Source: Chitinophaga sp.
Lineage (GTDB): Bacteria; Bacteroidota; Bacteroidia; Chitinophagales; Chitinophagaceae
Assembly: GCF_017745275.1 (NCBI RefSeq)
Contig: NZ_JAGHZS010000001.1
Span: 1 to 64,000 of the forward strand
Length of the DNA stretch: 64,000 nt
Direction of reading: 5' to 3'
Positions within the stretch are counted from its first letter, which is position 1. Every line of letters begins with the position of its first letter. Shown piece by piece: positions 6,129 to 58,768 of the stretch. The notes under the pieces are model-generated. The model was not told the DNA's origin. It ran no database searches and saw nothing but the letters and a program-made list of their open reading frames with translations. The translations under genes were made by a program, and so were the position numbers.

Positions 6129-6266
6129 GTTTTAGGTTTACCGGAAGATTATCTTCTCATATAAGCGAAATAAATATCGGCTAATTAATCTCCGTAAGAA
6201 AGGGGGATTTACTACGAGGTAGAAATTTAAAGGAAAACGGGGAGAATGGGGTGAAAAGTGGCGGAA

Positions 6267-6376
6267 TAGCTTTTAGCTGTTAGGCATTAGCTTTTAGTAA
6301 ATTTTGCAGCTATCATGATAGGTTTGTTATTCGCTGCATTTACCAAAAGCTAACTGCTAAAAGCTCTTTTTATGCT
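6267..6376. repeat. Heptad-repeat palindrome
   Basis: Left arm has units AGCTTTT, AGCTGTT, AGGCATT, AGCTTTT in register (period 7); right arm has the complementary AAAAGCT and ACTGCTA units. The core is AAATTTTGCAGC on the left and GCTGCATTTA on the right, close to the core of the copy at 53.7 kb. It fills the gap between the LytS-type kinase gene and the stop codon of the OmpR-type regulator, whose final GCA TAA lies in the right arm. Confidence 0.8.
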
Positions 6377-9570: not shown

Positions 9571-9677
9571 AAAAAGCTGAAAGCGGAAAGCCTAAAGCAA
9601 AAAGCTATTGAAGCGAAGATCAGAGCAGATCTTCGCTTCAATAGCTTTTTGCCCGGAGCTTTATGCTTTCAGCTTTC
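9571..9677. repeat. Heptad-repeat palindrome
   Basis: Long hairpin. Left arm: AAAGC units every 7 bp, then AAAAAGCTATTGAAGCG; apex is a separate perfect palindrome (AAGATC, loop AGAGCA, GATCTT); right arm: CGCTTCAATAGCTTTTT, then GC units spaced 7 bp. Right-arm spacing is 9-7-7-7-7 as in the copies at 1 and 47 kb. The right arm runs into the end of the pseudouridine synthase gene, whose last codons AAG CTG AAA GCA TAA are heptad sequence. Confidence 0.88.
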
Positions 9678-10248
9678 TATAAATCTCTTCCCGGCTCAAC
9701 TGGATGATATCTCCCGACTGCATGCCAGCGATGGTAATGTCTTCCATGCGGTAACGGACAAGCCTCAACGTAGGAAAGCCAACGGCCGCGGTCATACGTC
9801 TTACCTGCCGGTTCTTCCCCTCTGTCAGCACCATCCGGATCCAGGGGGCGGGGATGCTTTTACGAAAGCGGATAGGAGGGTTGCGGGGCGGCAACACGGG
9901 TTCTTCGGTAAAGATGGCTGCTTTACAACGTTTGGTACGATACAGCTTTCCATCCACATTAATCTGCACTCCCGCCTGTAGTTGGTGTATGGCTTCCGGA
10001 GTAACGGCGCCATCTACCTGTACCCAATATTCTCTTTCGTGAGCCCGGCTGGGCAGGAGCAGCCTTTGATTAAGCGCTTTATCATTGGTGAGGATAAGCA
10101 GGCCTTCACTGTCGTAATCCAGTCGTCCTACAGGATACACATCTGACGGCACTTTGAAATAATCTGCCAGGCAAGCCTTATTCCCTTCGGGGGTAAAGCG
10201 TGTCAACACCTCATATGGTTTATATATAATATAATAATTAAGCGCCAC
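9661..10248 (-). CDS. rluE: RluE-type 23S rRNA pseudouridine synthase
   Basis: 195-residue RsuA/RluB/E/F-family enzyme without the N-terminal S4 domain, as in RluE, which makes a pseudouridine in 23S rRNA. Catalytic Asp44 lies in PVGRLDYDSEGLLILTND; the C-terminal KNRQVRRMTAAVGFPTLRLVR block is the second family signature. Start is GTG 10248 giving MALNYYIIYKPYEV, the expected N terminus. The final residues KLKA and the stop codon are encoded by a heptad-repeat tract, so the repeat has become part of the coding sequence. Divergent from the Crp/Fnr gene by 53 bp. RluE is favoured by size and lack of S4; RluB or RluF would carry S4. Confidence 0.85.
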   Translation of the reverse strand: MALNYYIIYKPYEVLTRFTPEGNKACLADYFKVPSDVYPVGRLDYDSEGLLILTNDKALNQRLLLPSRAHEREYWVQVDGAVTPEAIHQLQAGVQINVDGKLYRTKRCKAAIFTEEPVLPPRNPPIRFRKSIPAPWIRMVLTEGKNRQVRRMTAAVGFPTLRLVRYRMEDITIAGMQSGDIIQLSREEIYRKLKA

Positions 10249-23333: not shown

Positions 23334-23346
23334 CATACTCAACAAC

Positions 23347-23381
23347 GGTTGTTTATCTGCCGGCAGTGCAGATAAACAACC
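23347..23381 (+). terminator. Terminator-like hairpin after the lpxD-like gene
   Basis: Perfect 14-bp stem GGTTGTTTATCTGC (23347-23360) and GCAGATAAACAACC (23368-23381) with a 7-base loop, 13 bases after the stop codon. No long U-run follows. Confidence 0.65.
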
Positions 23382-23423
23382 TTCCACCACTAATGCCCCC
23401 GTCATTCTAAACCCACTCACTTC

Positions 23424-26004: not shown

Positions 26005-26025
26005 TATCTGAGGTTTTTTCGTACA

Positions 26026-26100
26026 GAAAAAAAGCTATTGCAGCGACCAATGACCCGCTACAATAGCTTTTGCTTTATACATTTCGCTTTTTGCTTCATA
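26026..26100. repeat. Heptad-repeat palindrome, partly decayed
   Basis: Core stem AAAAGCTATTGCAGCG on the left and CGCTACAATAGCTTTT on the right around a short ACCAATGACC apex: the same stem foot as the copies at 9.6 and 47.2 kb. The right flank keeps GCTTT units with imperfect spacing; the left heptads are gone. It lies immediately 3' of pheS (minus strand). Confidence 0.78.
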
Positions 26101-37630: not shown

Positions 37631-37696
37631 AGCTGGATTTAAAAGGGGCGTTAAACTTACATCGATTTAACGTAAAATCCAACCTGCATTTATTAA

Positions 37697-37749
37697 TTAG
37701 CCGCTGGCCTTTAGCGTCGCTTACGAGCAACCTAAAAACCAACGGCTAA
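37697..37749. repeat. Possible decayed heptad-type palindrome
   Basis: Left arm TTAGCCGCTGGCCTTTAG (37697-37714) and right arm CTAAAAACCAACGGCTAA (37732-37749) pair at 15 of 18 positions. The left arm keeps AGC-type units 7 and 14 bp apart. It lies 3' of a minus-strand lipoprotein gene, the same placement as the clear copies, but the similarity is weak. Confidence 0.4.
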
Positions 37750-37771
37750 ATCCGGAGCACTGATTCCCGTA

Positions 37772-42011: not shown

Positions 42012-42120
42012 GTTAGCTATTAGCTAATAACCAATTGGCAAATGCAGCAGATAATAACGGCTGTACTGCCAATTTTTTGCTAAAAGCTAAAAGCTTGATG
42101 CTAAAAGCTGTCAAAAGCTA
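42012..42120. repeat. Heptad-repeat palindrome
   Basis: Left side has TTAGCTA units 7 bp apart, a core of CCAATTGGCAAATGCAGC, and after a spacer TGTACTGCCAATTTTTTGC; the right side has AAAAGCT units repeated at 7-bp spacing. The GGCAAATGCAGC core resembles AGGAAATGCAGCG of the copy at 53.7 kb. It lies just 3' of the second aspartyl-protease gene. Confidence 0.78.
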
Positions 42121-50848: not shown

Positions 50849-53665
50849 ATGGAAAAGAAATTATTTTTACTGGACGCCATGGCGCTGATATACAGGGCTT
50901 ATTACGCCCTTATCAGGAATCCCCGCATCACCAGCGCGGGTCGGAATACCAATGCGCAGTTTGGATTTACCACTACTTTACTGGATCTCATCAATAAAGA
51001 AAAACCTACTCATATAGCCGTTGCGTTTGACACGCACGCACCTACAGAGCGACATACTACCTACACGGATTATAAAGCCAATCGTCAGGATGCTCCGGAA
51101 GACCTGCTCGATGCATTACCCGATATTAAGCGCATCATTGAAGGATTTAATATCCCGGTAGTAGAGCTGGATGGTTATGAAGCGGATGATGTAATTGGTA
51201 CCCTGGCCTGGCAGGCCGCCGATGCAGGATATACAGTATACATGGTAACCCCGGATAAAGATTACGGACAATTGGTTAGAGATAATGTATTTATCTACAA
51301 ACCGCCGTACATGGGCAACAAAGAGGAAATCATGGGCCCTAAAGAGGTTTGTGAAAAATGGCAGATCCAGGATGTACATCAGGTCATTGATATCCTCGGC
51401 CTCATGGGAGATGCTGTTGATAACATTCCCGGAATTGCCGGTATCGGTGAAAAAACAGCCATGAAACTCCTGGCCCAGTATCATTCTTTAGAAAACATAC
51501 TGGAAAACGCCGATAATATTGGCGGGAAAATGGGCGAGAAAATCAAAGCCGGCCGCGAAGCTGCTATCCTGTCGAAAGAACTGGCCACCATCATTACCGA
51601 TGTACCGGTAACTTTCCACGAAGAAGATTTCTGCATTACCGACTGTGATAAAGAAAAACTGACCAGCATCTTTACGGAACTGGAGTTTAAAACCCTTGGT
51701 AAAAGGATTTTGGGAGATGGATTTGGCGGTAGTAGCGCTGCTGAAGCCAAACCAAAGGTCGTGCAAACAGACCTGTTTGGAACCGCTATTATAACAGAAG
51801 AAGTTACGATCACTACTGAAGTGATTGAAACAGGCAACATCCTGATGGCGGATAAAAATATTCATAACACGCCCCACCAGTACGATGTAATAGATACCGC
51901 CGAAAAGAGAGCCGCTTTACTGCAACAATTGTTACAGCAGAAGGAAGTGTCTTTTGATACGGAAACCACCGGTACCGATGCCAATGAAGCGGAGATCGTA
52001 GGTATGAGTTTCGCCTTTAAAAAGGGAGAGGCCTACTACATTCCTTTACCGGCCGACCAGGCCGCTGCCCGTGCCATTATTCATGAATTTATCCCGTTGT
52101 TTCAGCATAAAAGCATTGTGTTGGTAGGACAAAATGTGAAGTATGATATGCTGATCCTGAAATGGTATGGTGTAGATATTACCACCACGGTGTTTGATAC
52201 CATGCTGGCGCATTACCTGATTGAGCCCGAAGGCCGCCGGAGCATGGACGTGTTAAGTGCCCAATACCTCGGCTACGAACCGGTTTCCATAGAAACCCTC
52301 ATTGGTAAAAAAGGAAAGGGACAAGGCAATATGCGGGATGTGGAAATAGAAAAGATTAAAGAATATGCTGCGGAAGATGCCGATGTTACACTCCAGTTAA
52401 AAGACAAATTTTTGCCCATGCTGCCTGAAAAAGGGGTGGACAAAGTATTTTACGATATAGAAAATCCGCTGGTACCGGTACTCACGGATATGGAGTACGA
52501 AGGTATCGCCCTCGATACCCTTGCACTGGCTGACTATTCGAAAGAACTGGAAACAGAAATCAAGCGGGCAGAAGAAAGTGTATATGAACAGGCGGGCGTA
52601 CGTTTCAAACTGGCATCTCCCAAACAGTTGGGAGAAGTATTATTTGAAAAATTACAACTGGATCCTAAAGCCAAAAAAACACGTACCGGCCAGTATGCTA
52701 CCGGCGAAGACGTGCTGCAAAAACTTTCCAACAAACATAAAATTGTAGAGGATATCCTCATTTTCAGGGAGCTGAGTAAGTTGAAATCTACCTACGTAGA
52801 TTCGTTACCGTTATTGCTTAACAAGCGGACTAACCGGGTACATACTTCCTATAACCAGGCGGTAGCTGTGACCGGGCGCTTAAGCTCCAATAATCCCAAC
52901 CTGCAAAACATTCCTATTCGTACAGACAGGGGCCGTGAAATTCGCAAGGCCTTTATTCCGCGCAACGAGGAATACGTGTTACTGTCTGCCGACTATTCAC
53001 AGATAGAGCTACGTATTATTGCGGCTATCAGTGGAGATAAAGAGATGTCTGCTGCTTTTCAGAATGGGATAGATATCCACACCGCCACAGCGGCCAAAGT
53101 ATACAATGTAGCGTTGGATGCAGTTACGTCAGACATGCGTCGTAATGCGAAAAGCGTAAACTTCGGTATCATTTACGGCGTGAGTGCTTTTGGGTTATCA
53201 GAAAACCTGGGAATTCCGCGTGCGGAGGCGAAAACACTGATCGATAATTATTTCGCACAGTATCCGTCTATTAAGCAATACATGGAAGACCAGGTGAAGT
53301 TTGCGCAGGAAAACGGTTATGTACAAACGTTATTGGGGAGGAAAAGATGGTTAAAAGACATCAATTCATCCAATGCGGTAGTACGTGGTTTTGCAGAGCG
53401 GAACGCCATCAACATGCCTATTCAGGGTACGGCGGCCGACATGATTAAGCTGGCCATGATATCCATTCATAAAGCCTTTAAAGAACGGAACTTCAAGTCC
53501 CGTATGCTGTTGCAGGTACATGATGAATTGGTATTTGATGCCCATCGTTCAGAATTAGAGATGATTAAACCCCTTATATTAGATCTTATGCGCAATGCCT
53601 TACCATTATCTGTTCCGGTAGAAGCGGAACTGGGTACTGGTAATAACTGGCTGGAGGCGCACTAA
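50849..53665 (+). CDS. polA: DNA polymerase I
   Basis: 938 residues, the full three-domain enzyme for Okazaki-fragment processing and repair. 5'-3' exonuclease domain (1 to about 290: FLLDAMALIYRAYYAL, DGYEADDVIGTLAW, GDAVDNIPGIAGIGEKTA). 3'-5' proofreading domain with an intact DxE at Asp370-Glu372 in SFDTETTGTD, so proofreading is expected. Polymerase domain from about 580 to the end with catalytic Asp715 (LLSADYSQIELR), RRNAKSVNFGIIYGVSAFGL (finger helix) and Asp892 in VHDELVFD. Single gene with its own -7 element; a heptad-repeat palindrome begins 4 bases after its stop. Confidence 0.98.
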   Translation: MEKKLFLLDAMALIYRAYYALIRNPRITSAGRNTNAQFGFTTTLLDLINKEKPTHIAVAFDTHAPTERHTTYTDYKANRQDAPEDLLDALPDIKRIIEGFNIPVVELDGYEADDVIGTLAWQAADAGYTVYMVTPDKDYGQLVRDNVFIYKPPYMGNKEEIMGPKEVCEKWQIQDVHQVIDILGLMGDAVDNIPGIAGIGEKTAMKLLAQYHSLENILENADNIGGKMGEKIKAGREAAILSKELATIITDVPVTFHEEDFCITDCDKEKLTSIFTELEFKTLGKRILGDGFGGSSAAEAKPKVVQTDLFGTAIITEEVTITTEVIETGNILMADKNIHNTPHQYDVIDTAEKRAALLQQLLQQKEVSFDTETTGTDANEAEIVGMSFAFKKGEAYYIPLPADQAAARAIIHEFIPLFQHKSIVLVGQNVKYDMLILKWYGVDITTTVFDTMLAHYLIEPEGRRSMDVLSAQYLGYEPVSIETLIGKKGKGQGNMRDVEIEKIKEYAAEDADVTLQLKDKFLPMLPEKGVDKVFYDIENPLVPVLTDMEYEGIALDTLALADYSKELETEIKRAEESVYEQAGVRFKLASPKQLGEVLFEKLQLDPKAKKTRTGQYATGEDVLQKLSNKHKIVEDILIFRELSKLKSTYVDSLPLLLNKRTNRVHTSYNQAVAVTGRLSSNNPNLQNIPIRTDRGREIRKAFIPRNEEYVLLSADYSQIELRIIAAISGDKEMSAAFQNGIDIHTATAAKVYNVALDAVTSDMRRNAKSVNFGIIYGVSAFGLSENLGIPRAEAKTLIDNYFAQYPSIKQYMEDQVKFAQENGYVQTLLGRKRWLKDINSSNAVVRGFAERNAINMPIQGTAADMIKLAMISIHKAFKERNFKSRMLLQVHDELVFDAHRSELEMIKPLILDLMRNALPLSVPVEAELGTGNNWLEAH

Positions 53666-53668
53666 TAC

Positions 53669-53760
53669 AGCTTTTAGCCATTAGCTTTTAGCTTTTAGGA
53701 AATGCAGCGAAAACTATCCGCTACATTTCCTAAAAGCTAAAAGCTAATGGCTAAAAGCTA
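53669..53760. repeat. Heptad-repeat palindrome, near-perfect arms
   Basis: Left arm AGCTTTT, AGCCATT, AGCTTTT, AGCTTTT then AGGAAATGCAGCG; 9-base loop; right arm CGCTACATTTCCT then AAAAGCT, AAAAGCT, AATGGCT, AAAAGCT. The arms are complementary over about 40 bp, heptad for heptad, including the variant AGCCATT unit, so the two arms must be kept matched. It lies 3' of polA. Confidence 0.92.
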
Positions 53761-53832
53761 TTTTAATGCTAATGACTAATGGTAAGTGCTGGCATACTTG
53801 TATTTCCCAAAACAGTTTACTAGTTTTCAAAC

Positions 53833-55634: not shown

Positions 55635-55671
55635 AAAGAGGTGGTTCGGTAATACCGGGCCACCTCTTTTT
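55635..55671 (+). terminator. Terminator of the C1-type aminopeptidase gene
   Basis: AAAGAGGTGG (55635-55644) pairs with CCACCTCTTT (55660-55669); the stem continues through two T-G pairs and CGGT/ACCG to a 3-base loop, and TTTTT follows. Nineteen bases after the stop codon. Confidence 0.9.
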
Positions 55672-56752: not shown

Positions 56753-56827
56753 ATATAAAGTTAATGATTGTGTTTCACTTTCAGCTTTTTAGCCTACCTT
56801 TCGTCCCGATTTTTCTAAACCTACGCG

Positions 56828-57544
56828 ATGAATTTAAAAGGCATTGTTCCCAGAACGTGGAGGAGATTGAAGAGGGTACTACTGGTTTTAATTGTTGCAC
56901 AATTTATTTATATCATCCTGTTGAAATGGGTGAATCCGCCTATTACCATTACTGAAATCGCCAGCTGGTTCAGCCTCTGGGGCACAGATAAAAAACTGCA
57001 CAAAACATGGGTGAGCTATGATGAAATATCACAACATGCCAAGCTCGCTGTAATTGCCAGTGAAGATCAGCTCTTCACCGATCACAATGGCTTCGACTTT
57101 AAGTCTATCGAAAAAGCCATGAAGCATAACCAACAAAGTAAAAAGATAAAAGGTGCCAGCACTATCAGTCAGCAGGTTGCTAAAAACGTATTCCTGTGGC
57201 AGGGCCGTAGCTGGTTCCGCAAAGGGCTGGAGGTATATTTCACGTTTATGATTGAGAAGATTTGGGGGAAACAACGCATTCTTGAAGTATATCTCAACGT
57301 AGCTGAAATGGGAGAGGGCATATTTGGCGTAGAAGCCGCCGCCCAGGCCAATTACAATAAAAATGCGGCCAGTCTTAACCGTGAAGAGGCTGCCATGATC
57401 GCTGCCTGCTTACCTAACCCGATTAAATACACGATTAATCCGCCTGCCCGGATTACCAGTTATCGTCAACGAAAAATCCTGATACAAATGCGCAACCTGG
57501 CGCCGGATCCGGATATTATGGAACTGGTAGTGGGCACAAAATAA
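56828..57544 (+). CDS. mtgA: Monofunctional peptidoglycan glycosyltransferase MtgA
   Basis: 238 residues: an N-terminal transmembrane helix (about 16-33) and a GT51 glycosyltransferase domain without a transpeptidase part. Catalytic Glu79 is in IASEDQLFTDHNGFD; KGASTISQQVAKNVFLW and RILEVYLNVAEMGEGIFGVEAA are the second and third GT51 motifs. It polymerises lipid II into glycan strands on the periplasmic side. Single gene, divergent from yciO; a near -7 element TACCTTTC lies about 35 bp upstream. Confidence 0.95.
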   Translation: MNLKGIVPRTWRRLKRVLLVLIVAQFIYIILLKWVNPPITITEIASWFSLWGTDKKLHKTWVSYDEISQHAKLAVIASEDQLFTDHNGFDFKSIEKAMKHNQQSKKIKGASTISQQVAKNVFLWQGRSWFRKGLEVYFTFMIEKIWGKQRILEVYLNVAEMGEGIFGVEAAAQANYNKNAASLNREEAAMIAACLPNPIKYTINPPARITSYRQRKILIQMRNLAPDPDIMELVVGTK

Positions 57545-58689: not shown

Positions 58690-58721
58690 GGTGCGAAAGT
58701 GGATAAATATTTCCAGATTTC

Positions 58722-58762
58722 GTACATCGTTGTTGTGGATCTATACCACAACAACGATGTAC
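58722..58762. other. Perfect 17-bp hairpin between the PNGase F-like gene and pnuC
   Basis: GTACATCGTTGTTGTGG (58722-58738) is the exact complement of 58746-58762, with a 7-base loop ATCTATA. It lies 6 bp beyond the stop of the PNGase F-like gene and 33 bp before pnuC. There is no U-tract on either side, so it is either an unusual terminator, a processing site, or an operator or leader structure for NAD salvage. Neither known NAD riboswitch class is recognisable. Confidence 0.7.
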
Positions 58763-58768
58763 AAACCG

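Follow-up and report, generated by a model that had tools for sequence, protein, structure and literature searches.

Heptad-armed palindromes at gene 3′ ends in Chitinophaga: terminator-like hairpins whose arms may be rewritten

Short dispersed palindromes were reportedly described in Nostoc by Elhai and colleagues in 2008. These cyanobacterial SDR units are said to be palindromes of 21–27 nt that show compensatory changes, are nested, and are embedded in heptameric repeats; we liken them to the palindromes of Chitinophaga by description only. Better documented are the GGGAATC heptamers of Xanthomonas, for which the available part of the description (PMC4692102) gives 186 and 183 arrays in two genomes, 89–93% of them intergenic. 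These arrays lie almost exclusively nearer to the 5′ neighboring gene, 7–8% of them are found between divergent genes, and in 70 and 75 cases they are paired as inverted repeats. A preference for 7 bp has been linked to polymerase slippage in an earlier survey, as cited in the accessible parts of PMC4692102 and PMC4679880. According to the portion available, the P6b stem of the Nostoc tRNA-Leu intron varies by the number of its units and by indels of other elements (PMC3488679), and template switching is described as producing mirrored multi-base changes and perfect stems in one event (PMC8794818, in part).

Here, we analyzed a 64,000-nucleotide stretch of Chitinophaga DNA (the window) together with its genome (G000; 7.94 Mb, window included) and relatives. 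Our preferred reading, to which we assign a probability of roughly 0.55, is that the heptad palindromes are bidirectional, terminator-like 3′-end hairpins with arms grown by 7-bp slippage and matched by replication template switching.

Two types of palindrome and their position at gene ends

The palindrome at 53.7 kb possesses arms of 51 nt each (53659–53709 and 53719–53769) that are 92% complementary and enclose a loop of 9 nt. Its predicted fold amounts to −66.6 kcal/mol compared with −21.3 ± 2.9 kcal/mol in shuffled sequences (z −15.5), and none of 200 shuffles equals it. The left arm reads AGCTTTT-AGCCATT-AGCTTTT-AGCTTTT and the right arm AAAAGCT-AAAAGCT-AATGGCT-AAAAGCT. Each heptad pairs with its counterpart, the variant unit included, just as the first-pass annotation had described. 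The 938-amino acid gene 5′ of the palindrome presumably encodes DNA polymerase I (polA).

The other copies listed in that annotation also proved real in a fold-back search and with covariance models, which were built from 18 type A and 17 type B copies (two of the latter from other genomes). The annotation had seen one family; the copies do form a dispersed fold-back family, but two types had been pooled. Type A has the 5′-arm units AGCNNTT and the core AGCAAAATGCAGCGAAGATC (window copies at 6.3, 42.0, and 53.7 kb), and type B has the 5′-arm units AGCNNAA and the core AGCTATTGNAGCGAATGAT (copies at 0, 9.6, 26.0, and 47.2 kb). ATTACGA is a third kind of unit in the same genome. The copy that had been placed at 1 kb exists but is a half palindrome at the window edge, which is the first base of the contig (C11); a contig start within a type B palindrome is expected if such repeats break the assembly. 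The decayed candidate at 37.7 kb is taken as real because the orthologous slot of a relative (G034) holds a clear type A-like hairpin.

Table 1. Coordinates of the palindromes, of related slots, and of the polA-like gene in the window
Feature	Position	Strand	Remarks
Type B right half, cut by window/contig start	1..56	no strand	37.5 bits; 5′ end missing
Type A palindrome	6265..6368	no strand	67 bits
Type B palindrome	9573..9676	no strand	89 bits; five relatives have the low-coordinate arm only
Degraded type B palindrome	26021..26097	no strand	39 bits; complete in G034, diverged in G018/G019
Decayed type A copy	37692..37754	no strand	22 bits, E 0.02
Degraded type A palindrome	42013..42102	no strand	40 bits
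Type B palindrome bounded by convergent stop codons	47168..47292	no strand	130 bits; 53-nt arms, 100% complementary
polA-like gene, 938 aa	50849..53665	+	stop codon ends 3 nt before the 53.7 kb palindrome
Type A palindrome, 53.7 kb	53669..53759	no strand	covariance model 86 bits
53.7 kb, 5′ arm heptads	53669..53696		
53.7 kb, inner core	53697..53709		AGGAAATGCAGCG
53.7 kb, loop	53710..53718		
53.7 kb, complementary 3′ arm	53719..53759		
Ordinary terminator-like hairpin and T-tract	55635..55669	no strand	type A heptad palindrome in the G034 slot
Slot with remnant single heptad arm	56753..56866	no strand	CTTTCAGCTTTTTA; palindrome only in G034 among genomes seen

As the annotation had anticipated, further copies are present genome-wide. 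G000 contains 64 exact matches to AGCTTTTAGCTTTTAGC and 286 to the core half-site AAAGCTATTGNAGCG, with 0 matches to either reversed control. Among the matches listed, which come from the first contigs, the half-sites mostly stand in facing pairs ∼25 to 220 bp apart. Both covariance models return at least 150 scored matches in G000, and as each palindrome can be hit on either strand, this corresponds to at least 75 places per model. The model searches scored up to 150, 59, or 36 candidates per genome, and copy numbers taken from them are lower bounds. Three relatives contain 35, 49, and 65 core half-sites and the other 56 of 60 Chitinophaga genomes 0–3. A longer core pattern is found in 13 stretches among the genomes of 84,980 species, a set from which the window's own genome may be absent; all 13 are from Chitinophaga (hostae, polysaccharea, and sp. 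Ak27). In the loops of three type B elements (L035, L050, and L057), nested palindromes with 9-bp units (CAGGATTAAACTGATTATACTGATTTT-like) give an onion-like build.

For the survey of positions, we used 1.22 Mb of G000, consisting of 464 kb of contiguous DNA (window included) and 40 stretches that were picked for carrying elements; element density is therefore biased, and position is assumed to be unbiased. Genes were called with a dicodon-based finder, and palindromes were required to have a stem of at least 20 bp. None of the 148 long palindromes lies wholly within a gene, though 85% of this DNA is coding, in line with the proposed enrichment at gene 3′ ends. Tandem gaps hold 69 of them, convergent gaps 68, and divergent gaps 8, and 3 at the edge of a stretch were not placed. 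The statement that the elements always follow a gene is correct for all seven interior window copies but not absolute genome-wide, where 137 of 145 placeable palindromes occupy gaps with at least one bordering stop codon, the other 8 being situated between divergent genes. The same DNA contains 380 tandem, 113 convergent, and 133 divergent intergenic gaps of at least 50 bp. Elements with heptad arms are found in divergent gaps in 7 of 110 cases versus 133 of all 626 gaps (Fisher p 0.0001); the unpicked 464 kb by itself gives 2/28 versus 49/221 (p 0.08), which is suggestive and not significant.

The best arm period among the 148 palindromes is 7 in 91 and 14 in 29. Intergenic arrays of period 7 number 27 in the 464 kb, 22 of them inside palindromes, compared with 10, 2, 1, 0, 0, and 1 for periods 5, 6, 8, 9, 10, and 11. 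This preference for 7 bp agrees with the survey as cited in the accessible text of PMC4692102 and PMC4679880.

Heptad stems have a median length of 43 bp. Measured from the stop codon, the outer edge of the 112 heptad-armed palindromes has a median position of −2 nt (n = 103; 80 within 10 nt), which clearly differs from the +11 nt of the 36 non-heptad palindromes (n = 34; 16 within 10 nt). Heptad arms run into the end of the gene in 61 of 103 cases, compared with 4 of 34 among the non-heptad hairpins of G000; the outer arms thus extend beyond what an ordinary terminator needs. Among convergent heptad elements, 42 of 50 leave no more than 15 nt to either stop codon. It looks as if the heptad arms grew outward until they reached the genes.

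Arm pairing and orthologous slots in relatives

Pairing was counted in the 43 type B copies that have both exact half-sites; the others were left out. The variable core base N agrees in 41 of the 43. Heptads 1–4, counted outward, are the same in both arms in 40, 31, 28, and 16 copies (shuffled means 23.8, 9.6, 7.0, and 8.5), and heptad 5 is the same in one. The strict matching of arms that had been claimed thus applies to the inner heptads but decays outward. In alignments A2 and A1, 27 and 14 cells are changed on both sides with pairing kept, a number reached by 0 of 500 shuffles and not by slid controls (1–6 and 0–2). The predicted covariation between the arms is therefore present and, together with the gene-end position, supports the suggestion of a terminator- or 3′-end-like fold-back family.

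The type B core AGCTATTGNAGCG is flanked by A- and T-rich tracts, and the full arm runs past the T tract. In type B copies with both exact half-sites, at least 5 of the 8 nt that follow the inner arm are T in 78 of 80 arms, both strands considered; the pattern itself fixes the first of these T. As in intrinsic terminators, the hairpin follows just after the stop codon, and the inner stem of type B is followed by a U-tract.

For the polA-like gene, 3′ ends from 20 relatives were examined, of which 17 are usable (L097, L099, and L108 were dropped for wrong orientation). Judged by reading the folds, 16 of the 17 have a hairpin close after the stop codon; the exception (G001, L110) shows a weak fold. 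The hairpin itself differs: it is a type A heptad palindrome in G034, a ∼55-nt palindrome in G018 and G019, and a short classical terminator in distant species. The 55.6 kb slot is occupied by an ordinary hairpin and T-tract in the window, G018, and G019, and by a type A element in G034. It is mainly because this slot swaps an ordinary hairpin for a heptad palindrome that we call the element terminator-like.

Other slots are less uniform. At 58.7 kb, the hairpins of the window and G034 differ, and G018 and G019 possess a gap of 27–30 bp without a hairpin. The 47.2 kb slot contains a full palindrome in G018 and a short, collapsed hairpin in G019. A related element occupies four of the seven interior window slots in G034 (6.3, 26.0, 37.7, and 53.7 kb), the DNA of which is 77–90% identical to the window in blocks. 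Ordinary-looking hairpins with both arms unlike those in G034 are also seen at 23334–23423 and 58690–58768 of the window.

G018 and G019 (blocks 91–95% identical) allow a count of single pairs. In 31 orthologous hairpins with 504 pairs, 428 pairs are unchanged, 56 are changed on one side, 18 are double compensated, and 2 are double uncompensated; 42 gapped and 21 unpaired positions were left out. The 18 double compensated pairs compare with 1.3 expected by independence, and all fall into four hairpins (8, 4, 3, and 3), with no hairpin containing one or two. Among one-sided changes, 19 of 56 retain a G-T pair. In the polA slot, between flanks that are 97–98% identical, three pairs have changed in both arms, and the loop is present in inverted orientation. 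For the window and G034, the alignment is poor and the signal weak, with 14 double compensated pairs (4.8 expected) versus 20 double uncompensated ones, gapped (17) and unpaired (26) positions as well as divergent gaps being left out.

The arms of more distant elements use other units. The type B model matches 34 of 60 Chitinophaga genomes and 10 of 98 genomes of a family sample, G000 included. Going by reading of the best matches, congeners enclose a core like GNAGCGRAGAT...AGCG in arms of AAGAATG (G057), ACGAATT (G053), or ACGAATT and AGCTTTT (G027), and in G042 an 8-bp unit encloses a similar core. The best matches in other genera have heptad arms (GGTAGAA in G109, GGTGAAA in G066, GCNTAAA in G113, among others) without this core.

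In stretches of 80 to 464 kb from each of 12 genomes, heptad arms account for 16 of 28 palindromes in G000, 16/22 in G053, 12/12 in G049, 6/6 in G024, 4/6 in G113, 13/30 in G067 (which also has 8-bp and 9-bp units), 4/8 in G034, 2/4 in G057, and 2/9 in G018; the samples of G019 (0/6), G014 (0/6), and G143 (0/1) contain none. The stretches of G053, G057, G049, G024, G113, and G067 were placed at model matches and so reveal kinds, not density. Several unrelated types of unit coexist within one genome, and across species it is the 7-bp step and the gene-end site that recur; the unit does not. Palindromes in G053 and G067 (L195–L199 and L220–L224) also display 8-bp (ATTTGGTT and AATAACTG) and 9-bp (CACTAAGGC) units, and 100 kb of G067 contain 30 long palindromes.

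Two slots carry lone arms. At 9.6 kb, a single arm of GCTTTNN units, lacking both the core and the opposite arm, is present in G034, G004, G002, G018, and G057. In G000, the slot is filled by the type B palindrome, and the end of the upstream gene now falls within this palindrome. Of the three more distant genomes, G043 has no arm, and G041 was not counted (wrong orientation). In G020, a type A-like element with an interrupted arm (L255) follows the gene that matches 9661–10248 of the window. Read by eye, the two outermost heptads in the new arm of G000 (AGCATAA and AGCTGAA) are identical to their counterparts in the arm of G034, G004, G002, and G057; G018 differs in one of them, and the old arm of G000 has one of its outer two heptads altered (AGCGGAA). 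These heptads hint that the new arm may be a copy of the arm at that very site. Among the genomes compared at 56.8 kb, a palindrome is confined to G034. Lone arrays occur in G018, G019, and G057, remnants in G000, G002, and G004, and arrays built from another unit in G041 and G043; G020 has no array. Lone arms could also result from repeated loss of one arm.

In Bacteroidota, the −7 promoter element is TAnnTTTG. The lone arrays of the window (∼9.54–9.60 and 56.78–56.80 kb) and their orthologues are located just upstream of −7-like boxes, and a promoter role may keep single arms.

Origin and spread of the elements

The reading as slippage-grown, template-matched terminators starts from four observations: the position at stop codons, the covariation of the arms, the orthologous slots occupied by other hairpins, and the mirrored block changes in close relatives. 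A dispersed core is enclosed by long arms of tandem 7-bp units. We suggest that polymerase slippage at the hairpin extends the arms by 7 bp at a time and that replication template switching, by copying one arm onto the other, would keep them complementary. In another lineage, the arms would be rewritten with new units, and slot and 7-bp step would persist. Judging from sequence, transcription would stop at the elements from either side. The clustered double changes and the loop inversion fit template switching because they are its expected traces, according to the part of PMC8794818 available. Counting against this reading are the overlap of the outer arms with gene ends, slots without a hairpin (58.7 kb in G018 and G019), the restriction of concerted changes to four hairpins, the weak signal between the window and G034, the samples of G019, G014, and G143 that contain no heptad arms, and the non-significant shortage of divergent sites in the unpicked 464 kb.

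Slippage and template switching at one place do not account for a core at more than 100 places. Tentatively, the terminators might copy themselves in the absence of a transposase: a stalled polymerase would switch to the heptads of another copy or to its own other arm, copy core and arm, and overwrite the slot, with a lone array serving as the seed for a palindrome. The 9.6 kb slot, with one arm in five relatives, and the 56.8 kb slot, with a palindrome in G034 only, fit such self-copying.

Dispersal would also be explained by a MITE-like or SDR-like mobile palindrome, the core hairpin of which an enzyme recognizes as single-stranded DNA or RNA, with terminators as preferred targets. The uneven half-site numbers among the 60 genomes, the type A element at 55.6 kb in G034 that is absent in three other genomes, and the recurrence of the core in congeners with different arms are in its favor. 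REP-associated tyrosine transposase, which the first-pass annotation had considered along with REP/MITE-like mobility, gives 0 matches (Y1_Tnp, PF01797; Y1 family searched) in G000 (99.99% complete), whereas the same search is positive in 5 of 14 control genomes, and we reject a REP/RAYT element. The 20–40-bp palindrome with a GTAG or CGTC tag at its end is not seen in type B; for GTAG to arise, the core N must be T, as it is on both sides in 27 of 43 copies, and the GTAG then lies towards the center.

Target duplications around the 112 elements do not exceed chance (3 or more nt, 37 versus 34.1 shuffled; 4 or more, 14 versus 11.6; 7 or more, 0 versus 0.3), with edges imprecise enough that short ones may be missed, and a MITE is rejected on this ground. 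Conserved terminal inverted repeats are not found either: the outer heptads vary, heptad 5 is unrelated between copies, and it is the center that is conserved. At four of the seven interior slots, moreover, G034 (77–90% identical in blocks) has a related element. Neither of two split loci that were read contains an autonomous partner. One of them, the 47.2 kb slot of G034, has ordinary-looking genes and no element; in the other (L070, C11 of G000, ∼254.65–256.2 kb), a two-ORF insert within a type B loop parts two convergent genes, and from its sequence the insert looks like an insertion sequence of the IS3 kind. Taken together, we consider an enzyme-driven palindrome unlikely.

Ordinary RNA hairpins would arise from selection for pairing, through single compensatory mutations and heptads that converge by general slippage, with no templated rewriting. 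The arm covariation and the G-T pairs kept in 19 of 56 one-sided changes are what selection would leave, and heptamers are over-represented among bacterial repeats (PMC4692102 and PMC4679880, as far as accessible). Stepwise compensation is nevertheless hard to reconcile with double changes that come in clusters of 3 to 8 and never as one or two, and the loop inversion in the polA slot is no point mutation, which makes this explanation improbable. DNA-level sites tolerated at gene ends (uptake signals or sites bound by nucleoid or cruciform-binding proteins) would account for a symmetry on both strands, and uptake sequences of some other bacteria do occur as paired terminators, but the complete change of units between species, the several types per genome, so unlike a fixed recognition sequence, and the unrelated hairpins in orthologous slots leave them very little credibility.

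We also considered a six-frame stop cassette, as TTTTAGC units stop every frame on both strands; this cannot be general because AGCAGAA and AGCAAAA units contain no stop.

Long perfect stems are hard to evolve through point mutation. In this genus, well over 100 natural copies per genome keep their slot, hairpin, and 7-bp step while the sequence is replaced, and pairs of close species may reveal individual rewriting events. Three questions thereby become testable: whether terminators are built and maintained by template switching, why 7 bp is the favored step of tandem repeats in bacteria, and whether small palindromes can spread in the absence of a transposase. Covariation in stems of this kind may reflect a mutational process and not solely selection on RNA structure.

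Comparison with described systems

The first-pass annotation had not recognized the palindromes as a named family. Indeed, Rfam at gathering score gives 0 matches in the window, and neither Rfam nor the open-access literature yielded a name; the 47.2 kb copy has no match in one phage collection and the 53.7 kb copy none in one plasmid collection. There are nevertheless kindred heptameric repeats 3′ of genes in Xanthomonas (PMC4692102). In the open-access literature, we found no prior description of the core, the change of units between species, the fit to stop codons, or the mirrored changes.

REP/RAYT elements are likewise dispersed extragenic palindromes, but the accessible part of PMC3733652 gives them 20–40 bp and a GTAG or CGTC tag. 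The hairpins attributed to template switching belong to RNA genes in the available text of PMC8794818, which does not describe hairpins of tandem units at gene ends as seen in Chitinophaga. In P6b of the Nostoc tRNA-Leu intron, degenerate 7-nt repeats pair as a hairpin, as they do here, yet the portion of PMC3488679 available concerns a single intron locus and not a dispersed gene-end family.

The closest match is to Xanthomonas. In both cases, tandem 7-bp units are mostly intergenic, lie on the 3′ side of genes, and in part form inverted pairs. The accessible description of Xanthomonas (PMC4692102) treats one G-rich unit, studied as a G-quadruplex, whereas Chitinophaga uses several units (AGCNNTT, AGCNNAA, and ATTACGA), none of which is G-rich and quadruplex-forming; a shared core, a change of units between species, and mirrored arm changes do not feature in that part of the description. 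On this basis, the Xanthomonas heptamers are the nearest relative in kind of the Chitinophaga palindromes, and they lower the novelty of the latter.
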